From assembly GCF_027924565.1 (NCBI RefSeq), contig NZ_AP027041.1:1-64000 (forward strand): 64,000 nt of DNA, given 5' to 3'. The translations under genes and the position numbers were made by a program. This DNA comes from Lysobacter auxotrophicus (GTDB lineage: Bacteria > Pseudomonadota > Gammaproteobacteria > Xanthomonadales > Xanthomonadaceae). Below, piece by piece: positions 2,762 to 55,305 of the stretch (its first letter is position 1; each line of letters opens with the position of its first letter). A model generated the notes under the pieces. That model was not told the origin of the DNA, ran no database searches, and worked only from the letters and a program-made list of their open reading frames with translations.

Positions 2762-2791
2762 CGCCCGGCCTCGTGCCGGGCGTTTTGTTTT
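2762..2791 (+). terminator. Rho-independent terminator after dnaN
   Basis: An 8-bp GC stem, CGCCCGGC at 2762-2769 pairing with GCCGGGCG at 2775-2782, with a 5-nt loop is followed directly by TTTTGTTTT. It lies 26 bp after the dnaN stop and 23 bp before the recF start. Confidence 0.85.
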
Positions 2792-2814
2792 GGTCGTCCG
2801 CTAGACTTGCTCCG

Positions 2815-3915
2815 ATGCACGTCACCCGACTTGAGCTGCGCCATCTACGCCGCTTCCAGGAACTCCGCCTCGACCCCGCGCCAGGCCTGAACCTCATCAC
2901 GGGCGATAACGGCGCGGGCAAGACCAGCGTCCTTGAAGCCCTCCATCTGATGGCCTACGGGCGCAGCTTCCGCGGGCGGGTACGGGACGGCCTGATCCGG
3001 GCTGGCGATCCAGGTCTGGAGGTCTTCGTCGAATGGCGCGAGAAAGCGGGTCGCGGCCTTGAGGAGGAGGAGCGCACGCGCAAGGCTGGGCTCCGACACA
3101 CGGGCCAGGATTGGACCGGAAGGCTCGACGGCGCCAACGTGGGCCAGCTGGGAGATCTTTGTGCGGCGCTGGCTGTGGTCACCTTCGAGCCCGGCAGCCA
3201 TGCGCTGATCACCGGCGGTGGCGAATCCAGACGTCGCTATCTGGACTGGGGTCTGTTCCACGTGGAACACGACTTCCTGCCCGTGTGGCGTCGCTACAAC
3301 CGGGCGCTGAAGCAAAGAAATGCCCTCCTTAAGGCGCGCGCCCGGGACGCGCAACTCGATGCCTGGGATCACGAACTCTCGGAGGCCGGTGAACCCCTCA
3401 GCCGGTTCCGCGAACGGTACCTCGAGCTCCTGCAGACCCGATTCGCTCCCCTGTTGAGTGAGCTCGCCCCAGCGCTAGGCACGAGTCGCTTGGAGTACGC
3501 CCCGGGCTGGCGTCGCGAGGAGATGTCGCTCGCGGATGCGCTGCTGCTCGCGCGGGAGCGGGACCTCAGCGCGGGATACACCTCGGCGGGGCCGCATCGG
3601 GCGGACTGGCGCGTTGCCTTCGGTAACCTGCCGGGGCGCGAAGCGCTCTCCCGCGGGCAATCCAAGCTCACCGCCCTGGCGGCGCTACTGGCACAGGCTG
3701 AACACCACGATGAGGTACAGGGCGAATGGCCCGTCGTGGCCCTGGATGACCTTGCATCGGAGCTTGATCGCCACCATCAAGGAAGGGTGCTGGCGCGCCT
3801 TCAGGCCAGCGGCGCCCAGGTGTTCATCACGGGCACGGAAGCTCCGCCCGGATTACCCGCAGAGTTTCCCGCGAGTCTGTTCCACGTGGAACACGGCGCG
3901 ATCAGCACCCGCTGA
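2815..3915 (+). CDS. recF: DNA replication and repair protein RecF
   Basis: RecF is an SMC-like ATPase that works with RecO and RecR to load RecA at single-strand gaps. The product is 366 residues, a normal length. Walker A GDNGAGKT is at 30-37, the ABC-type signature region around LSRGQSKL is in the last third, and Walker B lies in the WPVVALDDLASELD stretch. The ATG at 2815 gives the conserved start MHVTRLELRHLRRF; the frame is open upstream to 2773 but that part overlaps the dnaN terminator. Two perfect parS palindromes (3254-3269 and 3878-3893) lie inside the coding sequence and each encodes LFHVEH. Confidence 0.97.
   Translation: MHVTRLELRHLRRFQELRLDPAPGLNLITGDNGAGKTSVLEALHLMAYGRSFRGRVRDGLIRAGDPGLEVFVEWREKAGRGLEEEERTRKAGLRHTGQDWTGRLDGANVGQLGDLCAALAVVTFEPGSHALITGGGESRRRYLDWGLFHVEHDFLPVWRRYNRALKQRNALLKARARDAQLDAWDHELSEAGEPLSRFRERYLELLQTRFAPLLSELAPALGTSRLEYAPGWRREEMSLADALLLARERDLSAGYTSAGPHRADWRVAFGNLPGREALSRGQSKLTALAALLAQAEHHDEVQGEWPVVALDDLASELDRHHQGRVLARLQASGAQVFITGTEAPPGLPAEFPASLFHVEHGAISTR
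3254..3269. promoter_or_regulatory. parS ParB-binding site 2 (inside recF)
   Basis: A perfect 16-bp palindrome, TGTTCCACGTGGAACA, identical to the Pseudomonas-type parS. It is read through in frame as part of the RecF peptide GLFHVEHD. Confidence 0.93.
3878..3893. promoter_or_regulatory. parS ParB-binding site 3 (3' end of recF)
   Basis: A second perfect copy of TGTTCCACGTGGAACA, ending 22 bp before the end of the recF stop codon and encoding SLFHVEHG at the RecF C-terminus. Confidence 0.93.
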
Positions 3916-50581: not shown

Positions 50582-51793
50582 TCAGCCGCCGTCGGTCGGC
50601 ATCACCGGCATCGCATCGACCGGCACCTGCGGGTTCGTGTCGTCCTGCAGGTAATCGGGCAGGTTGTCGGCGTCGTCGGCGTTCATGCGGTCGCCGAAGA
50701 TCTGGTAGTCGCGGCGCTGCATCCACGCATCGCGCACGAGGGCGTAATCGTCCTCGGCGCCTTCGCGGAAGCTGTCCGTCGCCAGCAGCTGCGCACGCAC
50801 GTCCACCAGTTGCAGGCCCTGCAGCGGAATGCGCACGCGATCGGCTTCCACCTGGCGAAGCGGACTCAGCGGCGCGTCGCCGACCATGCCAAAGCTGTCG
50901 CGCAGCGTGCGCGGCCCGAACAGCGGCAACTCGACGAAGCGCGAACGCTTCCAGCCCCACACGCCCAGCGTCTGGCCGAAATCCTCGCTCTTGTTCGGCA
51001 GCTTGGCGTCGGAAGCCGGATCGAAGATGCCCGCGATGCCCAGGGTCGAATTGAGCAGGAAGCGGCCCAGCGACTGCCCCGCCTGCTTCGGCTTGCCCTG
51101 GAGCAGCGCGTTGATCGCCGACACAGGCTGGCCGAGATTGTTGAAGAAGTTGCTGACGCCCAGGCGGAAAGGGCGCGGCACGACCTTCACGTACCCGCGC
51201 GCGAGCGGCCGCGCGACCGTGCGGTCGACGGCGTTGTTGAAGCGGTGCATGCCACGGTTGTAGCGCTCCCAGGGGTCGTAGACCTGGGGCGTCGGCGCGG
51301 GGGCGGGCAGCGTGGGATCGGCGAATTCCGGCCCATAGATGGCGTCGAAATCGCGCTCGGCCTGGGTCGGCTCGCCCTGTGCTGTCGTACCCGGTTCGGT
51401 GGACGTGGGCGGGACGTCGGTCGGCGGAATCTCCGTCGGCGGCGGGGCGTCGGGCGTCACCGGCTCCGTCGACGGCGTCGTCGCCGGCTCGCTGGGCGGC
51501 AGCGGCGGCGGAACCGGCTCGCTCGGCGGGGGCGTGGGCGTCGGCTGCGTTTCGGTCGGCGGCGGGGTCGCCGGGACGGCAGGCGGCTGGGATTCGACCG
51601 GCCGGCCGGTCTCGCCGTCGATGGTCGCCTGCACGCACTTGCGTGCCGCGGCCTTGTCGTCGCCGGCGGCCTTCATGCAGCGGTCGAATTCCGCTGCCTG
51701 CGCGCCCGAAAGCGGCCGCGTGAGGATCTGCGCCTGGCCGATCAGCGGCGCGGCGGCGAGCACGAGTGCGATGAGGGGTGCGTGGGGGCGCAT
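50582..51793 (-). CDS. mlaA: MlaA/VacJ-family protein without lipobox, with Pro/Thr-rich insert
   Basis: The outer-membrane component of the Mla system, which removes phospholipids from the outer leaflet and hands them to MlaC. The 403 residues are longer than usual (about 250). The MlaA core lies at about 171-370 (YDPWERYNRGMHRFNNAVDR, NFFNNLGQPVSAINALLQG, GIFDPASDAKLPNKSEDFGQTLGVWG). The N-terminal signal peptide (cleavage near residue 22) has no lipobox Cys, unlike typical MlaA lipoproteins. Residues 23-60 hold two Cys (39 and 53), and 65-145 are a Pro/Thr/Ser/Glu-rich linker. An acidic C-terminal tail contains LPDYLQ, also found in MlaD of this operon. It is last in mlaFEDCBA, 153 bp after mlaB. 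Confidence 0.93.
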   Translation of the reverse strand: MRPHAPLIALVLAAAPLIGQAQILTRPLSGAQAAEFDRCMKAAGDDKAAARKCVQATIDGETGRPVESQPPAVPATPPPTETQPTPTPPPSEPVPPPLPPSEPATTPSTEPVTPDAPPPTEIPPTDVPPTSTEPGTTAQGEPTQAERDFDAIYGPEFADPTLPAPAPTPQVYDPWERYNRGMHRFNNAVDRTVARPLARGYVKVVPRPFRLGVSNFFNNLGQPVSAINALLQGKPKQAGQSLGRFLLNSTLGIAGIFDPASDAKLPNKSEDFGQTLGVWGWKRSRFVELPLFGPRTLRDSFGMVGDAPLSPLRQVEADRVRIPLQGLQLVDVRAQLLATDSFREGAEDDYALVRDAWMQRRDYQIFGDRMNADDADNLPDYLQDDTNPQVPVDAMPVMPTDGG

Positions 51794-51946
51794 GGTCGCA
51801 GAGGGAGCCTGTTCAGTGTCTCCATGTCGCCCGCGCCGGGACGGCGAACCTGCGGGGCAAGGAGAGTGAGGGAGTGTAAGTCGATACGTGACCGGGCGAT
51901 GACGTCGTGGCCCGGGCCCGCGTACCGGCGAAGATCGGGACGCGTC

Positions 51947-52222
51947 TCAGCCGGCGAAGGCCAGCGCCGCGTCCAGCCGATAGGCGCGTCGCAGGTCCGC
52001 CAGGCCGGGCGGCGAGCCGATCACTTCGGAGATCCCCAGGCGCCCGCTGAGCTCGGCCAGCAGCGCGAGGCCCGCGCTGTCGACCGATTCCACGGCGCTC
52101 AGGTCGAGGCGGCGCGCCTTTGCCGCGCGCAGCTGCGACCACAACGAGGCGACGGCGGCGCGCTCAAGCACGCCGCCGAAGGCGAGGGTGTCACCGTCCT
52201 GGCGGACCGTCGCGGCGGCCAT
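51947..52222 (-). CDS. mlaB: STAS-domain protein MlaB
   Basis: A 91-residue STAS-domain protein that binds and stabilises MlaF in the MlaFEDB complex. It has the STAS core (LDLSAVESVDSAGLALLAELSGRLG), with the conserved Ser of the DSAG motif. It starts 1 bp after the mlaC stop and is followed by a 153-bp gap with no recognisable feature before mlaA. Confidence 0.92.
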   Translation of the reverse strand: MAAATVRQDGDTLAFGGVLERAAVASLWSQLRAAKARRLDLSAVESVDSAGLALLAELSGRLGISEVIGSPPGLADLRRAYRLDAALAFAG

Positions 52223-52223
52223 G

Positions 52224-52892
52224 TCAGTTCGTGGCGGCCTGCGCCTGCAGCTTGCCAGCCTTGATATCTGCGGCGACCTGCGGGATCGACTTCTGCTTCA
52301 GCGGCGCGTCGAACTGGTTGCGGAAGGTCTGCACGAAGCTGACGCCTTCCACCATCACGTCGAACACCTTCCACTGCGAACCGACCTTGCGCATCAGGTA
52401 ATCGACCGGCACCGGCTCGTTGCCCTGGCGCAGGTACTCGCTCGACACCTTCACGATGGCGCCGCCGCGCAGCGGGGTTTCGGACTTCACGCGGACCTTC
52501 AGCTTGGTGTTGAGGTCCAGCAGCGAGGAACCGTAGCGCTGCATCAGGCTGTCGGCCAGCGCGTCGGCGAAGACCTTCACGTCCGCGTCGGACGCGCCGC
52601 GACCGTGCACGCCCAGCACGAGGCGGGCGGAGTAGTCGCGGTCGAACATGTTGTTGAACTCGCTGCCGATGAAGTCGCGCAGCGCGCCGCGGTTCTTCTG
52701 GAACTCGGCGCGGCGCGATTCCAGCGTCGCCAGGATGCGGGTGGAATTGCTCAGCACCAGCTGGCTGGGCGAGTCGGCGGCCGGCGTGGCGGCCGGCGCC
52801 GGCGCGGTCTGCGCGAGCACGGCGGCCGGGGCGGCCACGGCCAGCGCGGCGGCGATGAGGAGCGAAAGGGAACGGTTGGAAATGCGCGTCAT
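52224..52892 (-). CDS. mlaC: Periplasmic phospholipid-binding protein MlaC
   Basis: The shuttle that carries phospholipids between MlaA at the outer membrane and MlaFEDB at the inner membrane. The 222 residues start with a signal peptide (about 1-27), then a Pro/Ala linker and the Tol_Tol_Ttg2 (MlaC) fold (RDFIGSEFNNMFDRDYSARLVLG, FADALADSLMQRYGSSLL, MRKVGSQWKVFDVMVEGVSFVQTFRNQFD). The start overlaps the mlaD stop by 4 bp, so the two are coupled. Confidence 0.95.
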   Translation of the reverse strand: MTRISNRSLSLLIAAALAVAAPAAVLAQTAPAPAATPAADSPSQLVLSNSTRILATLESRRAEFQKNRGALRDFIGSEFNNMFDRDYSARLVLGVHGRGASDADVKVFADALADSLMQRYGSSLLDLNTKLKVRVKSETPLRGGAIVKVSSEYLRQGNEPVPVDYLMRKVGSQWKVFDVMVEGVSFVQTFRNQFDAPLKQKSIPQVAADIKAGKLQAQAATN

Positions 52893-53446
52893 GGCTTCTT
52901 GGTCTCGTCCGTGGGGGCGGATTCGCCTTGCAGATAATCGGGAAGTGCGGCGTCTTGGCCGTCGGTTTGTCCGGCATTGTCGGCGGGCTTTGCGCCACCG
53001 CCGCTGAACATGTACTTGCCCACCAGCTGGATCAGATCGACCGCCGATTGGGTCAGGTAAAGCTCGTCGCCGGGCTTCAGGTTTTCGGGGTCGCCACCCG
53101 GCGCGAGGTTCACGTAGCTCTCGCCCAGCAGGCCGCTGGTGAGGATGCTCGCTGCCGTGTCGGCCGGCAGCTTGTCGTAGCGCTTGTTGATCGCCAGGGT
53201 CACAACGGTGTCGAACTTGACGGGATCCACGTCGATCTTGTCGACATGTCCGATGGAGACGCCACCGATCTTGATCGGCGCGTTGGGTCGCAGCGCCCCG
53301 ATCGTCGAGAAACGGGCGGTCAGCGGGTAGGTGTCGCCGCCTAGGCCCCAGCGACCGTTGGTCGAGGCGAGCGCCAGGACCAGCAGCGAGGCGAGCGCCA
53401 GCAGGAGGAAGGCGCCGACGGCGAATTCGATTCGGGGGGCACGCAT
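52889..53446 (-). CDS. mlaD: MCE-domain protein MlaD
   Basis: The 185-residue product has one N-terminal membrane span (about 8-29) and an MCE domain (about 40-125) with ARFSTIGALRPNAPIKIGGVSIGHVDKI and GLLGESYVNLAPGG, then a helix (LTQSAVDLIQLVGKYMF) and a C-terminal acidic/Pro tail. MlaD hexamers form the periplasmic channel on MlaFE. The tail contains LPDYLQ, matching a peptide in the MlaA tail. ATG 53446 gives the expected short cytoplasmic N-terminus; the upstream open frame to 53536 overlaps the gap to mlaE, which holds imperfect GGGATCC-like repeats. Confidence 0.95.
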   Translation of the reverse strand: MRAPRIEFAVGAFLLLALASLLVLALASTNGRWGLGGDTYPLTARFSTIGALRPNAPIKIGGVSIGHVDKIDVDPVKFDTVVTLAINKRYDKLPADTAASILTSGLLGESYVNLAPGGDPENLKPGDELYLTQSAVDLIQLVGKYMFSGGGAKPADNAGQTDGQDAALPDYLQGESAPTDETKKP

Positions 53447-53532: not shown

Positions 53533-54282
53533 TCACCGGAACAGGAAAGCCGACATCACGAAATTGAACATCAGCACCAGCAACGAGGCGTTGACCACGG
53601 CGCGGGTGGTCGCCACCGAGGTGCCCTCGATCGTCGGCTCGGCGTGGAAGCCCACGTAAGCCGCCACCAGTGCCGCCGTGCCGCCGAACACCGCCGACTT
53701 CACGAAGGCCATCAGGAAGTCGTCGACGAAATCGACACTGTCCTTCAACACCTGCCAGAAGGTGCCCGCGTCCAGGCCGATGACGTGGACCGACTCGAAG
53801 TAGCTCGCGCTGATCGCCAGGCTGCAGAAGAAGCCCGTCAGCAGCGGCACGCAGAGCACCGCCGCCCAGAAGCGCGGCGCGACGGCCTTGCCGACCGGAT
53901 CGATCGCCATGAGTCCAAGCGCGGTGATCTGGTCGGTGGCGCGCATCAGGCCGAGTTCGGCGGCGATGGAGCTGCCCGCGCGGCCGATGAAGAGCAGGGC
54001 GGTCAGCACCGGGCCGAGTTCCCGGTACAGGCCGAGGCCCAGCATCGCGCTGACCTGGGCCGTCGCGCCGTAGGTTTCCAGCGCGCGGTAGCCGAGCAGC
54101 GTCACCGAAAGGCCGACGAACGCGCCACCAACGGCGATGATCGGCAGCGACCGTGCGCCGATCTTGTAAATCTCACGAACCAGCTCGCGCCAGAAGTCGG
54201 CGGTCGGCCTGGAGGCCCGCAGGACGGACAACGAGAACAACCCGGCCCGACCGAGCGAGCGCGTGGCGGCAACGAACGGCAT
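53533..54282 (-). CDS. mlaE: ABC transporter permease MlaE
   Basis: The 249-residue inner-membrane permease of the Mla phospholipid transporter. It has about five or six spans and the family landmarks GGAFVGLSVTLLGYRALETYGA, LGLYRELGPVLTALLFIGRAGSSIAAELGLMRATDQITAL (coupling region for MlaF) and the closing VMSAFLF. Its ATG shares one base with the mlaF stop codon. The gap to mlaD is 86 bp. Confidence 0.96.
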   Translation of the reverse strand: MPFVAATRSLGRAGLFSLSVLRASRPTADFWRELVREIYKIGARSLPIIAVGGAFVGLSVTLLGYRALETYGATAQVSAMLGLGLYRELGPVLTALLFIGRAGSSIAAELGLMRATDQITALGLMAIDPVGKAVAPRFWAAVLCVPLLTGFFCSLAISASYFESVHVIGLDAGTFWQVLKDSVDFVDDFLMAFVKSAVFGGTAALVAAYVGFHAEPTIEGTSVATTRAVVNASLLVLMFNFVMSAFLFR

Positions 54283-55070
54283 CAGGCGGCCTCCGAGGTG
54301 CGCGGCGCGGCGTCGAAGGCGATCGGGCCGTCCGGTTCCCCGTTGAGGAACTGGCGCACGAACGGGTCCTCGCTGGCTTCCAGCTGGGCCGGCGTGCCGG
54401 AGAAGACGATCCCGCCGTTCGCGATGACGATGGCGTGGTCGGCCACCGGCAGCGTTTCGTGCACGTGGTGGGTGACGACGATGCTGGTCAGCCCCAGCGT
54501 GTCGTTGAGGCGCTTCACCAGCTCCATCACGACGCCCGAGGCGATCGGGTCCAGGCCGGTCAGCGGCTCGTCGTAGATCATCAGCGGCGGATCCAGCGCC
54601 AGCGCGCGGGCCAGCGCGACGCGGCGCGCCATGCCGCCGGACAGTTCGCGCGGGTACGAAACGGCCACCGCGCGCAGGCCCACCGCGTGCAGCTTCATCA
54701 GCACCAGCTGGCGAATCACCGCGTCGGGCAGGTTGGTGTGCGCGCGCAAGGGCAGGGCGACGTTCTCGGCCGCGGTCAGGTCGGTCAGCAGGCCGTTGCC
54801 CTGCAGAAGCACGCCGATGCCCTTGCGAAGTTCGAGCAGCGCGCGACGTCCCTGCGGCACCGGCTGGCCGAACACCTCCACCGAGCCTGCGGCCGGTGCG
54901 AGCTCGCCGGTCAGCGCCGCGAGCAGCGTCGACTTGCCGCTGCCCGACGGCCCGAGCACCGCGACGATGCTGCCGCGCGGGACGTCCAGGCTGATGTCGC
55001 GCAGCACGGCGCGTCCGCCGCGATCGAGGCGGAGGTGGTTCAAGCGGACGATGGGCGCTTCGTTCGTCAT
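54282..55070 (-). CDS. mlaF: ABC transporter ATP-binding protein MlaF
   Basis: The 262-residue ATPase that drives MlaFEDB. It contains Walker A GPSGSGKST, Q loop VLLQGNGLL, signature LSGGMARRVALARAL, Walker B LMIYDEPLTGLD and switch His in VTHHVHE. ATG 55070 (MTNEAPIVRLNHLR) is the likely start; the open frame reaches 55199 but overlaps promoter sequence. It is first in the operon and divergent from recC over 235 bp, which must hold both promoters; I see no clear -35/-10 pair. Confidence 0.96.
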   Translation of the reverse strand: MTNEAPIVRLNHLRLDRGGRAVLRDISLDVPRGSIVAVLGPSGSGKSTLLAALTGELAPAAGSVEVFGQPVPQGRRALLELRKGIGVLLQGNGLLTDLTAAENVALPLRAHTNLPDAVIRQLVLMKLHAVGLRAVAVSYPRELSGGMARRVALARALALDPPLMIYDEPLTGLDPIASGVVMELVKRLNDTLGLTSIVVTHHVHETLPVADHAIVIANGGIVFSGTPAQLEASEDPFVRQFLNGEPDGPIAFDAAPRTSEAA

Positions 55071-55305
55071 GCGCGTGCGTGTTCGGCCGGCTGCCGGAAA
55101 GCGGGCAGGATGGCCGGTAAGGGCTGAACGGAACCGGGAAGGCGGGCATTGTCGCAGGTTCGTCGCACTTTGCCCGCCATGCCTTGCGGCACGGTGCATC
55201 GCGCGGCACGGCCATGATCGCGACGGGTTTTTGGGGCGGTCTTAATACGCGCGTCGGCGCGGCGCGTCTCGTCGTGCGCGACGCCGCTCCGGCAAGATAG
55301 CCGCG

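Follow-up and report, generated by a model that had tools for sequence, protein, structure and literature searches.

What captures and releases the periplasmic lipid carrier MlaC, and what gives its traffic between the two membranes a direction, is a general question, to which a 64,000-nucleotide stretch of the Lysobacter auxotrophicus genome (contig NZ_AP027041.1, positions 1 to 64,000 of the forward strand; hereafter the window) adds a more particular one: why do two proteins of its mla operon, MlaA and MlaD, end in tails that carry the same peptide, LPDYLQ? The window holds a complete operon on the minus strand (mlaF, mlaE, mlaD, mlaC, mlaB, mlaA), in which mlaB and mlaC are encoded between mlaD and mlaA. 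A preliminary description of this DNA had noticed the hexapeptide and taken it for a common MlaC docking site. The comparisons presented here lead us to favour, with moderate confidence, a narrower proposal: [LVT]-P-[DA]-Y-L-[QKR], the core common to both tails, would be a short linear MlaC docking motif, and MlaD proteins of the Lysobacter type would have acquired a mimic of the MlaA bait by which MlaC would be caught through the same cleft.

The LPDYLQ peptide in both tails

The window's MlaA ends in ...DADNLPDYLQDDTNPQVPVDAMPVMPTDGG and its MlaD in ...DGQDAALPDYLQGESAPTDETKKP, and the identity of LPDYLQ, read from both translations, is exact. The codons do differ, as had been pointed out: mlaA uses CTG CCC GAT TAC CTG CAG and mlaD CTT CCC GAT TAT CTG CAA, which leaves 15 of 18 bases identical and three synonymous third-base differences. 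Across the 4.16 Mb genome, DNA patterns for [LF]PDY[LF] and P[DEA]YL[QK] return 9 and 10 matches, respectively. The former comprise MlaA and MlaD, one locus (L122) without an in-frame motif and six positions inside larger proteins, judged by eye to be folded enzymes or signalling proteins and including a HisC-like enzyme (L123) with the match near its C-terminus; the latter comprise, besides MlaA and MlaD, one match out of frame and seven that lie at least 75 residues from the C-terminus. By the same inspection by eye, MlaA and MlaD are the only ones among the 9 and the 10 matches to carry the peptide in a C-terminal tail outside a fold. When the 37 motif-bearing MlaD tails of the family-wide set introduced below are shuffled, the motif arises in 0.08 tails on average over 2000 rounds, with a maximum of 2, and the occurrence of LPDYLQ in both tails is above chance.

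Conservation, selection and spread of the motif

For the family-wide comparison 137 mla loci were gathered: the window, 56 loci from family members and 80 from titled genome records. Eleven operons lacking a complete MlaA/MlaC/MlaD set or a recognisable domain end were dropped, leaving 126 usable loci, and the further removal of 13 duplicates gave the 113 distinct Xanthomonadaceae operons that form the base set for the counts below. With the motif called as P-[DAEPN]-Y-L in the C-terminal tail, it is present in 107 of the MlaA tails and in 37 of the MlaD tails; no operon carries it in MlaD alone, and six carry it in neither protein, three of these being Stenotrophomonas or near kin, and the MlaA of L069 having LPSYLQ, that is, P-x-Y-L with serine at the open position. 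The whole hexapeptide is common to both proteins in three operons only (the window, L127 and L128), so that chance has a part in its six-letter identity; what is conserved is the core P-x-Y-L.

It is at this core that the codon record is most telling. Counted on a single FastTree topology, for rows selected with P-[DAEPN]-Y-L, the three core positions P, Y and L of MlaD have undergone at least 8, 8 and 9 codon changes (at least 25 in total) and not one amino-acid change, and those of MlaA 34, 13 and 8 codon changes, again with none at the amino-acid level; choosing rows by the motif does little harm here, because neither of the two motif-bearing clades of the 113-row tree contains a row without the motif. 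The surrounding MlaD tail, sites -12 to -2 and +6 to +12, shows 7-19 amino-acid changes at each site, and the motif's own variable letters, the one preceding P, the one following it and the one following L, show 11, 7 and 5. P, Y and L are thus under strong purifying selection in both tails, a pattern characteristic of short linear motifs that are retained because they bind. Coincidence, or the neutral retention in mlaD of a copied mlaA end, could appeal to the two genes sharing one operon with two genes between them, to the 15 agreeing bases of the motif and to the rarity of full hexapeptide identity; neutrality, however, is already contradicted by the codon counts, obtained in a tail that is otherwise freely replaced, and with 37 tails observed against the 0.08 expected by shuffling this explanation retains next to no probability. 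A copying origin of the MlaD motif is, as such, possible.

The context of the motif is equally distinctive. Outside it, the 37 motif-bearing MlaD tails are made of shifting A, G, D, P, S, E, K and T, with 0.2% L, 0.1% V and no aromatic residue, and since there is almost no hydrophobic residue elsewhere, the motif is the sole sticky patch of the MlaD tail. In the AlphaFold model the tail of the window's MlaD is disordered, with a predicted local distance difference test score (pLDDT) below 50; the MlaA model is too poor for use (mean pLDDT 52), and in both models the motif, compared with the amphipathic tail helix of the E. coli docking peptide, forms only short helical turns of low confidence. 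The motif stands 17 to 37 residues away from the folded part of MlaD and is followed, counting from its core, by 1 to 18 residues, making up the very C-terminus (YLQ or YLK) in 8 of the 37 tails and leaving 2 to 18 residues after the core in the other 29; in MlaA, mostly 16-26 residues follow. Such varying distances and trailing lengths are as expected for a tethered bait, unlike a fixed contact. They also bear on two further explanations. A C-terminal signal for proteolysis or sorting, common to the two proteins, would suit the eight MlaD tails that end in the motif, but not the remaining 29 or the long MlaA extensions, nor the residence of MlaA and MlaD in different membranes, and we hold it to be very improbable. 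A motif that folds back on the MlaD ring or pore, as a plug or an assembly aid, with the MlaA likeness merely convergent, finds some footing in the hexameric state of MlaD known from the literature, in the modelled start of the tail at the protein's C-terminal helix and in the Xanthomonas and Luteimonas MlaD proteins that do without the motif; its linker of 17 to 37 residues is nevertheless unlike a fixed intramolecular contact, and it leaves the same P-x-Y-L core in the ring-less MlaA unexplained, which makes it improbable.

The motif-bearing MlaD proteins come from Lysobacter-type lineages, the window included, and from Vulcaniibacterium tengchongense. The MlaD motif is absent in all Xanthomonas, Luteimonas, Stenotrophomonas, Pseudoxanthomonas and Thermomonas rows seen, and some species named Lysobacter also lack it. 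Within the window's genus it is found in 12 of 12 genomes (window included) and within a second genus in 7 of 7, five of these 19 genomes lying outside the 113-operon set and G358, one of the five, being probably the dropped row L158. In G344, which belongs to the window's genus and is likewise one of the five, mlaD is split over two frames (L402/L403), with the motif in the second piece.

A wider sample at the level of the order and class, covering part of the genomes gathered there, comprised 127 genomes, in 98 of which an MlaD tail was read, some of these being Xanthomonadaceae; P-x-Y-[LF] occurs in none of the 98 MlaD tails, and a wider spread of the motif in the order or class was rejected on this sample. 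The MlaD tails of these genomes are mostly short, and in 65 order- and class-level genomes the words of at least four letters shared between MlaA and MlaD tails number three, all of a charged or Pro/Ala/Gly type. Three class-level genomes (L326, L334 and L338) have a nearly tail-less MlaA encoded directly downstream of MlaD, an arrangement which suggests that MlaC is captured there without a tail bait.

Family-wide co-occurrence is ruled out as well. The preliminary description had proposed to check across Xanthomonadaceae whether the motif occurs in both proteins and covaries, and had named its absence from one of them in close relatives as a refutation; MlaD lacks the motif in 76 of the 113 operons, so that the claim is refuted for the family as a whole, and no covariation of the MlaA and MlaD variants is apparent by eye, alanine following P in 12 of 37 MlaD tails vs. 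3 of 107 MlaA tails. The shared motif is a Lysobacter-type feature and not a general docking motif.

MlaC as the presumed receptor

The case for MlaC begins with the MlaA tail of E. coli. As described in PMC10245069, the part of that tail beyond residue 226 is predicted to wrap itself about MlaC and to bind in a cleft formed by helix 3 and strands beta3/beta4; MlaC binding is lost on truncation of the tail and with the substitutions L245N and I248N, is weakened with I241N, and complementation fails for every one of these variants; and the tail alone, carried on green fluorescent protein (GFP), binds MlaC with an apparent dissociation constant (KD) of 57 uM. PMC10719372 adds that the acidic residues D243/D244 face a basic MlaC patch and that the cryo-EM map was fitted with a poly-alanine trace for the tail helix. 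The E. coli tail, NAQAIQDDLKDIDSE, belongs to the same family and occupies the same place after the MlaA domain as the window's (PMC10245069, PMC10719372; PDB 8I8X), and both present a short hydrophobic and acidic peptide on a linker (LPDYLQDD in the window, AIQDDLKDI in E. coli). The P-x-Y-L core is missing from E. coli, however, and most Xanthomonadaceae MlaA tails add after the motif a conserved block like TVPVDAMP. From its position and its likeness to the E. coli tail, the MlaA half of the motif is the lineage version of a known bait and, by this analogy, already known in substance. A conserved hydrophobic and acidic C-terminal peptide of the E. coli docking type is found in MlaA (107/113) and in MlaD (37/113) alike.

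Three operons of Stenotrophomonas and a relative (L040, L166 and L177) have lost the P-x-Y-L of MlaA and kept the downstream IPVDAMP block, so the two elements of the MlaA tail can part.

It is the MlaD half that appears new: to judge by the sequences compared, it is a second peptide that is specific to the lineage and that E. coli lacks. No mention of LPDYLQ, LPDYLR or PDYLQ in an Mla context was found in a literature search beyond whose reach most subscription papers and preprints lie; neither titles nor abstract openings describe the motif in the literature on MlaA with Lysobacter, on MlaC and MlaD with Xanthomonas, or on docking of the MlaD tail, nor do those of the matches listed for short linear motifs combined with Mla names. 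By analogy, the MlaD peptide would resemble the beta6-beta7 loop of E. coli MlaD, as the proposed MlaD element that meets MlaC at the cleft which MlaA also uses, with the difference that the E. coli element is a folded loop and that of Lysobacter-type MlaD a tail peptide.

This analogy is also the source of several points that weigh against shared docking. According to PMC10245069 and PMC11289387, the element occupying the MlaC cleft also used by MlaA is, in E. coli, the MlaD loop and not the tail; the disordered E. coli tail contains no such motif and is dispensable, as MlaD without residues 153-183 binds MlaC and functions normally (PMC10245069). In our alignment the beta6-beta7 loop of the window's MlaD is five residues shorter than that of E. 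coli and has nothing at F118, and the loop is equally short in relatives without the motif (A1) and in the Pseudomonas-type MlaD structure sequence 7ch8. On the receptor side, E. coli MlaC Y82 aligns with G97, R90 with V105, R134 with S150 and R147 with P162; several cleft or interface residues are therefore not kept, and the Lysobacter-type MlaC cleft is not simply the same but changed in part. To these points we add that more than one register is possible against the E. coli MlaA tail (LPDYL/IQDDL by spacing, YLQDD/AIQDD in the HMMER alignment), that the second conserved block of the MlaA tail is not common to MlaD, that the MlaA motif is kept in 59 of the 65 operons whose MlaC residue 146 is not hydrophobic, and that the 98 MlaD tails of the wider sample are devoid of the motif altogether. 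The short loop was considered as the reason for a tail bait and found no support, motif-less relatives sharing that loop.

Other receptor positions are well preserved. The counterparts of E. coli Y72, D165 and T176 in MlaC are invariant across all 113 operons, the position of R153 holds R in 104 and H in 9, and R98, which aligns with K83 of E. coli, is arginine in 112 operons and lysine in 1 (this basic residue is printed as K84 in PMC10719372, the lysine being residue 83 in the NC_000913.3 sequence). In E. coli, the substitutions Y82K and I130D of MlaC each abolish MlaD binding (PMC10245069). The counterpart of I130, residue 146, is hydrophobic (I, L, V or M) in every one of the 37 motif-bearing operons and in 11 of the 76 others, a difference that amounts to only 1 to 3 independent contrasts, for which reason the covariation was withdrawn as evidence. 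From the 59 operons noted above it further follows that the MlaA peptide does not need a hydrophobic residue there. In the other operons residues 142-146 mostly take forms such as PGNRG or PRGLG.

If MlaC were not the receptor, both tails might bind a third periplasmic partner, such as a porin loop, a peptidoglycan-linked protein or a chaperone. Such a partner would be consistent with a strongly conserved peptide of interaction type whose MlaC binding in this lineage is predicted only, with the absence of P-x-Y-L from the E. coli tail and with the loss of the interface residues Y82 and R90 from MlaC; on the other hand, E. coli MlaA binds MlaC directly through the tail that occupies this place, and MlaC, here encoded between MlaD and MlaA, is the only soluble protein known to contact the two of them. 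We consider a third partner unlikely, if less so than the ring and signal explanations above. The claim of a common MlaC docking site hence survives in part: the selection on P, Y and L, the MlaC binding of the E. coli MlaA tail and the E. coli cleft that serves both MlaA and MlaD speak for it, while its family-wide extension fails in 76 of 113 operons and the E. coli MlaD tail is dispensable. Judged by this analogy, a shared MlaC docking motif is plausible, and it is the best explanation within the Lysobacter-type lineage, though not a general one.

With shared docking as the working model, the MlaA tail peptide would be the Xanthomonadaceae version of the E. coli helix that recruits MlaC to the outer membrane, and the MlaA tail and the six tails of an MlaD ring, on tethers of 17-37 residues, would present equivalent peptides. 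The MlaC cleft would hold one peptide at a time, making binding at the two membranes mutually exclusive: MlaC would be caught at the outer membrane by MlaA, loaded and released, then caught at the inner membrane by an MlaD tail and brought to the ring, such that its hand-over would consist in the swap of one bait for an equivalent one. We infer, from the E. coli comparison, that the MlaD peptide binds MlaC, that it does so in that cleft and that it aids capture or hand-over. More tentatively still, and with rather less confidence than in the docking motif itself, we envisage a symmetric relay, in which donor and acceptor on opposite membranes carry the same bait, MlaC exchanges copies of it in a single cleft and the six tethered inner-membrane baits bias capture towards that side, MlaD having acquired the bait a single time, as a mimic or a copy of the mlaA end, and kept it under strong selection since. 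A lineage whose two partners may use an interchangeable peptide opens competition, avidity and hand-over to experiments with short peptides, and raises the question why a loop is enough for E. coli. It suggests, too, that the disordered tail of an MCE protein can have a selected function in some lineages even though E. coli can dispense with it.

In a single genome (G056), a reverse-strand frame at 2766-3831 (L043) fuses mlaD and mlaC, joining an MlaD core and an Ala/Pro-rich tail to an MlaC without signal peptide; the fusion is not found in the other 29 of 31 genus genomes read (G319 not among them). It is possibly an assembly error; if real, it would leave MlaC tethered to the inner membrane.

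Origin of the MlaD motif and the surrounding operon

Free trees scatter the motif-bearing rows over poorly supported deep forks, with 3 changes in the 113-row tree and 5 in a tree of 58 of these rows, and the order of the deep Lysobacter branches is poorly resolved on them. When the 21 motif-bearing rows of the 58-row tree are held together as one clade, the tree is 9.2 log units better, a preference that is not significant (approximately unbiased (AU) test, p 0.655). The one-clade tree being unrejected, a single gain is allowed, and one gain followed by unbroken retention would be the simplest reading of these sequences; the MlaD tail may have been copied from mlaA or may have an independent origin.

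Table 1. Positions of the mla genes, tail motifs and related segments in the window
Feature	Positions	Strand	Remarks
mlaA	50582..51793	-	403 amino acids; PF04333 domain at residues 172-363, C-terminal tail of ~40 residues beyond
Second conserved MlaA tail block, NPQVPVDAMP	50606..50635	-	loose pattern in 102/113 MlaA tails and 5/113 MlaD tails
MlaA tail motif, LPDYLQ	50645..50662	-	residues 378-383; by position, counterpart of the E. coli MlaA tail helix
mlaB	51947..52222	-	STAS_2 domain above cut-off; NCBIfam mlaB_1 below cut-off
mlaC	52224..52892	-	periplasmic lipid carrier, presumed receptor of the motif
MlaC residues 142-146, RGGAI	52455..52469	-	cleft segment; residue 146 aligns with E. 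coli MlaC I130
mlaD	52889..53446	-	185 amino acids from ATG; MCE protein
MlaD disordered C-terminal tail	52892..52993	-	AlphaFold model residues 146-179, pLDDT <50
MlaD tail motif, LPDYLQ	52928..52945	-	C-terminal tail
mlaE	53533..54282	-	permease subunit; TIGR00056 above cut-off, NCBIfam perm_MlaE_1 below cut-off
mlaF	54282..55199	-	ATPase; best NCBIfam match MlaF, below cut-off; true start may lie further in

The assignment of the three proteins discussed here rests on profile matches of differing breadth. MlaA scores 242.2 bits against PF04333 (curated Pfam cut-off 25) and 129.1 against the narrower NCBIfam equivalog PRK15091, below its cut-off of 375; MlaD scores 159.4 bits against the equivalog TIGR04430 (OM_asym_MlaD; cut-off 135); and MlaC scores 133.9 bits against PF05494 (curated Pfam cut-off 26) and stays below the NCBIfam cut-offs of PRK15117 (64.1 vs. 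195) and HpnM (65.7 vs. 160.1). The closest rows to the window on the 113-row tree are Lysobacter soli, L. arvi and L. changpingensis.

At its other end, the window's MlaA has a Pro/Thr-rich N-terminal part of 171 residues (51281-51793) that precedes the MlaA domain. Its first cysteine is residue 39, not close to the end of the apparent signal peptide, and the protein may for this reason be no classical lipoprotein.

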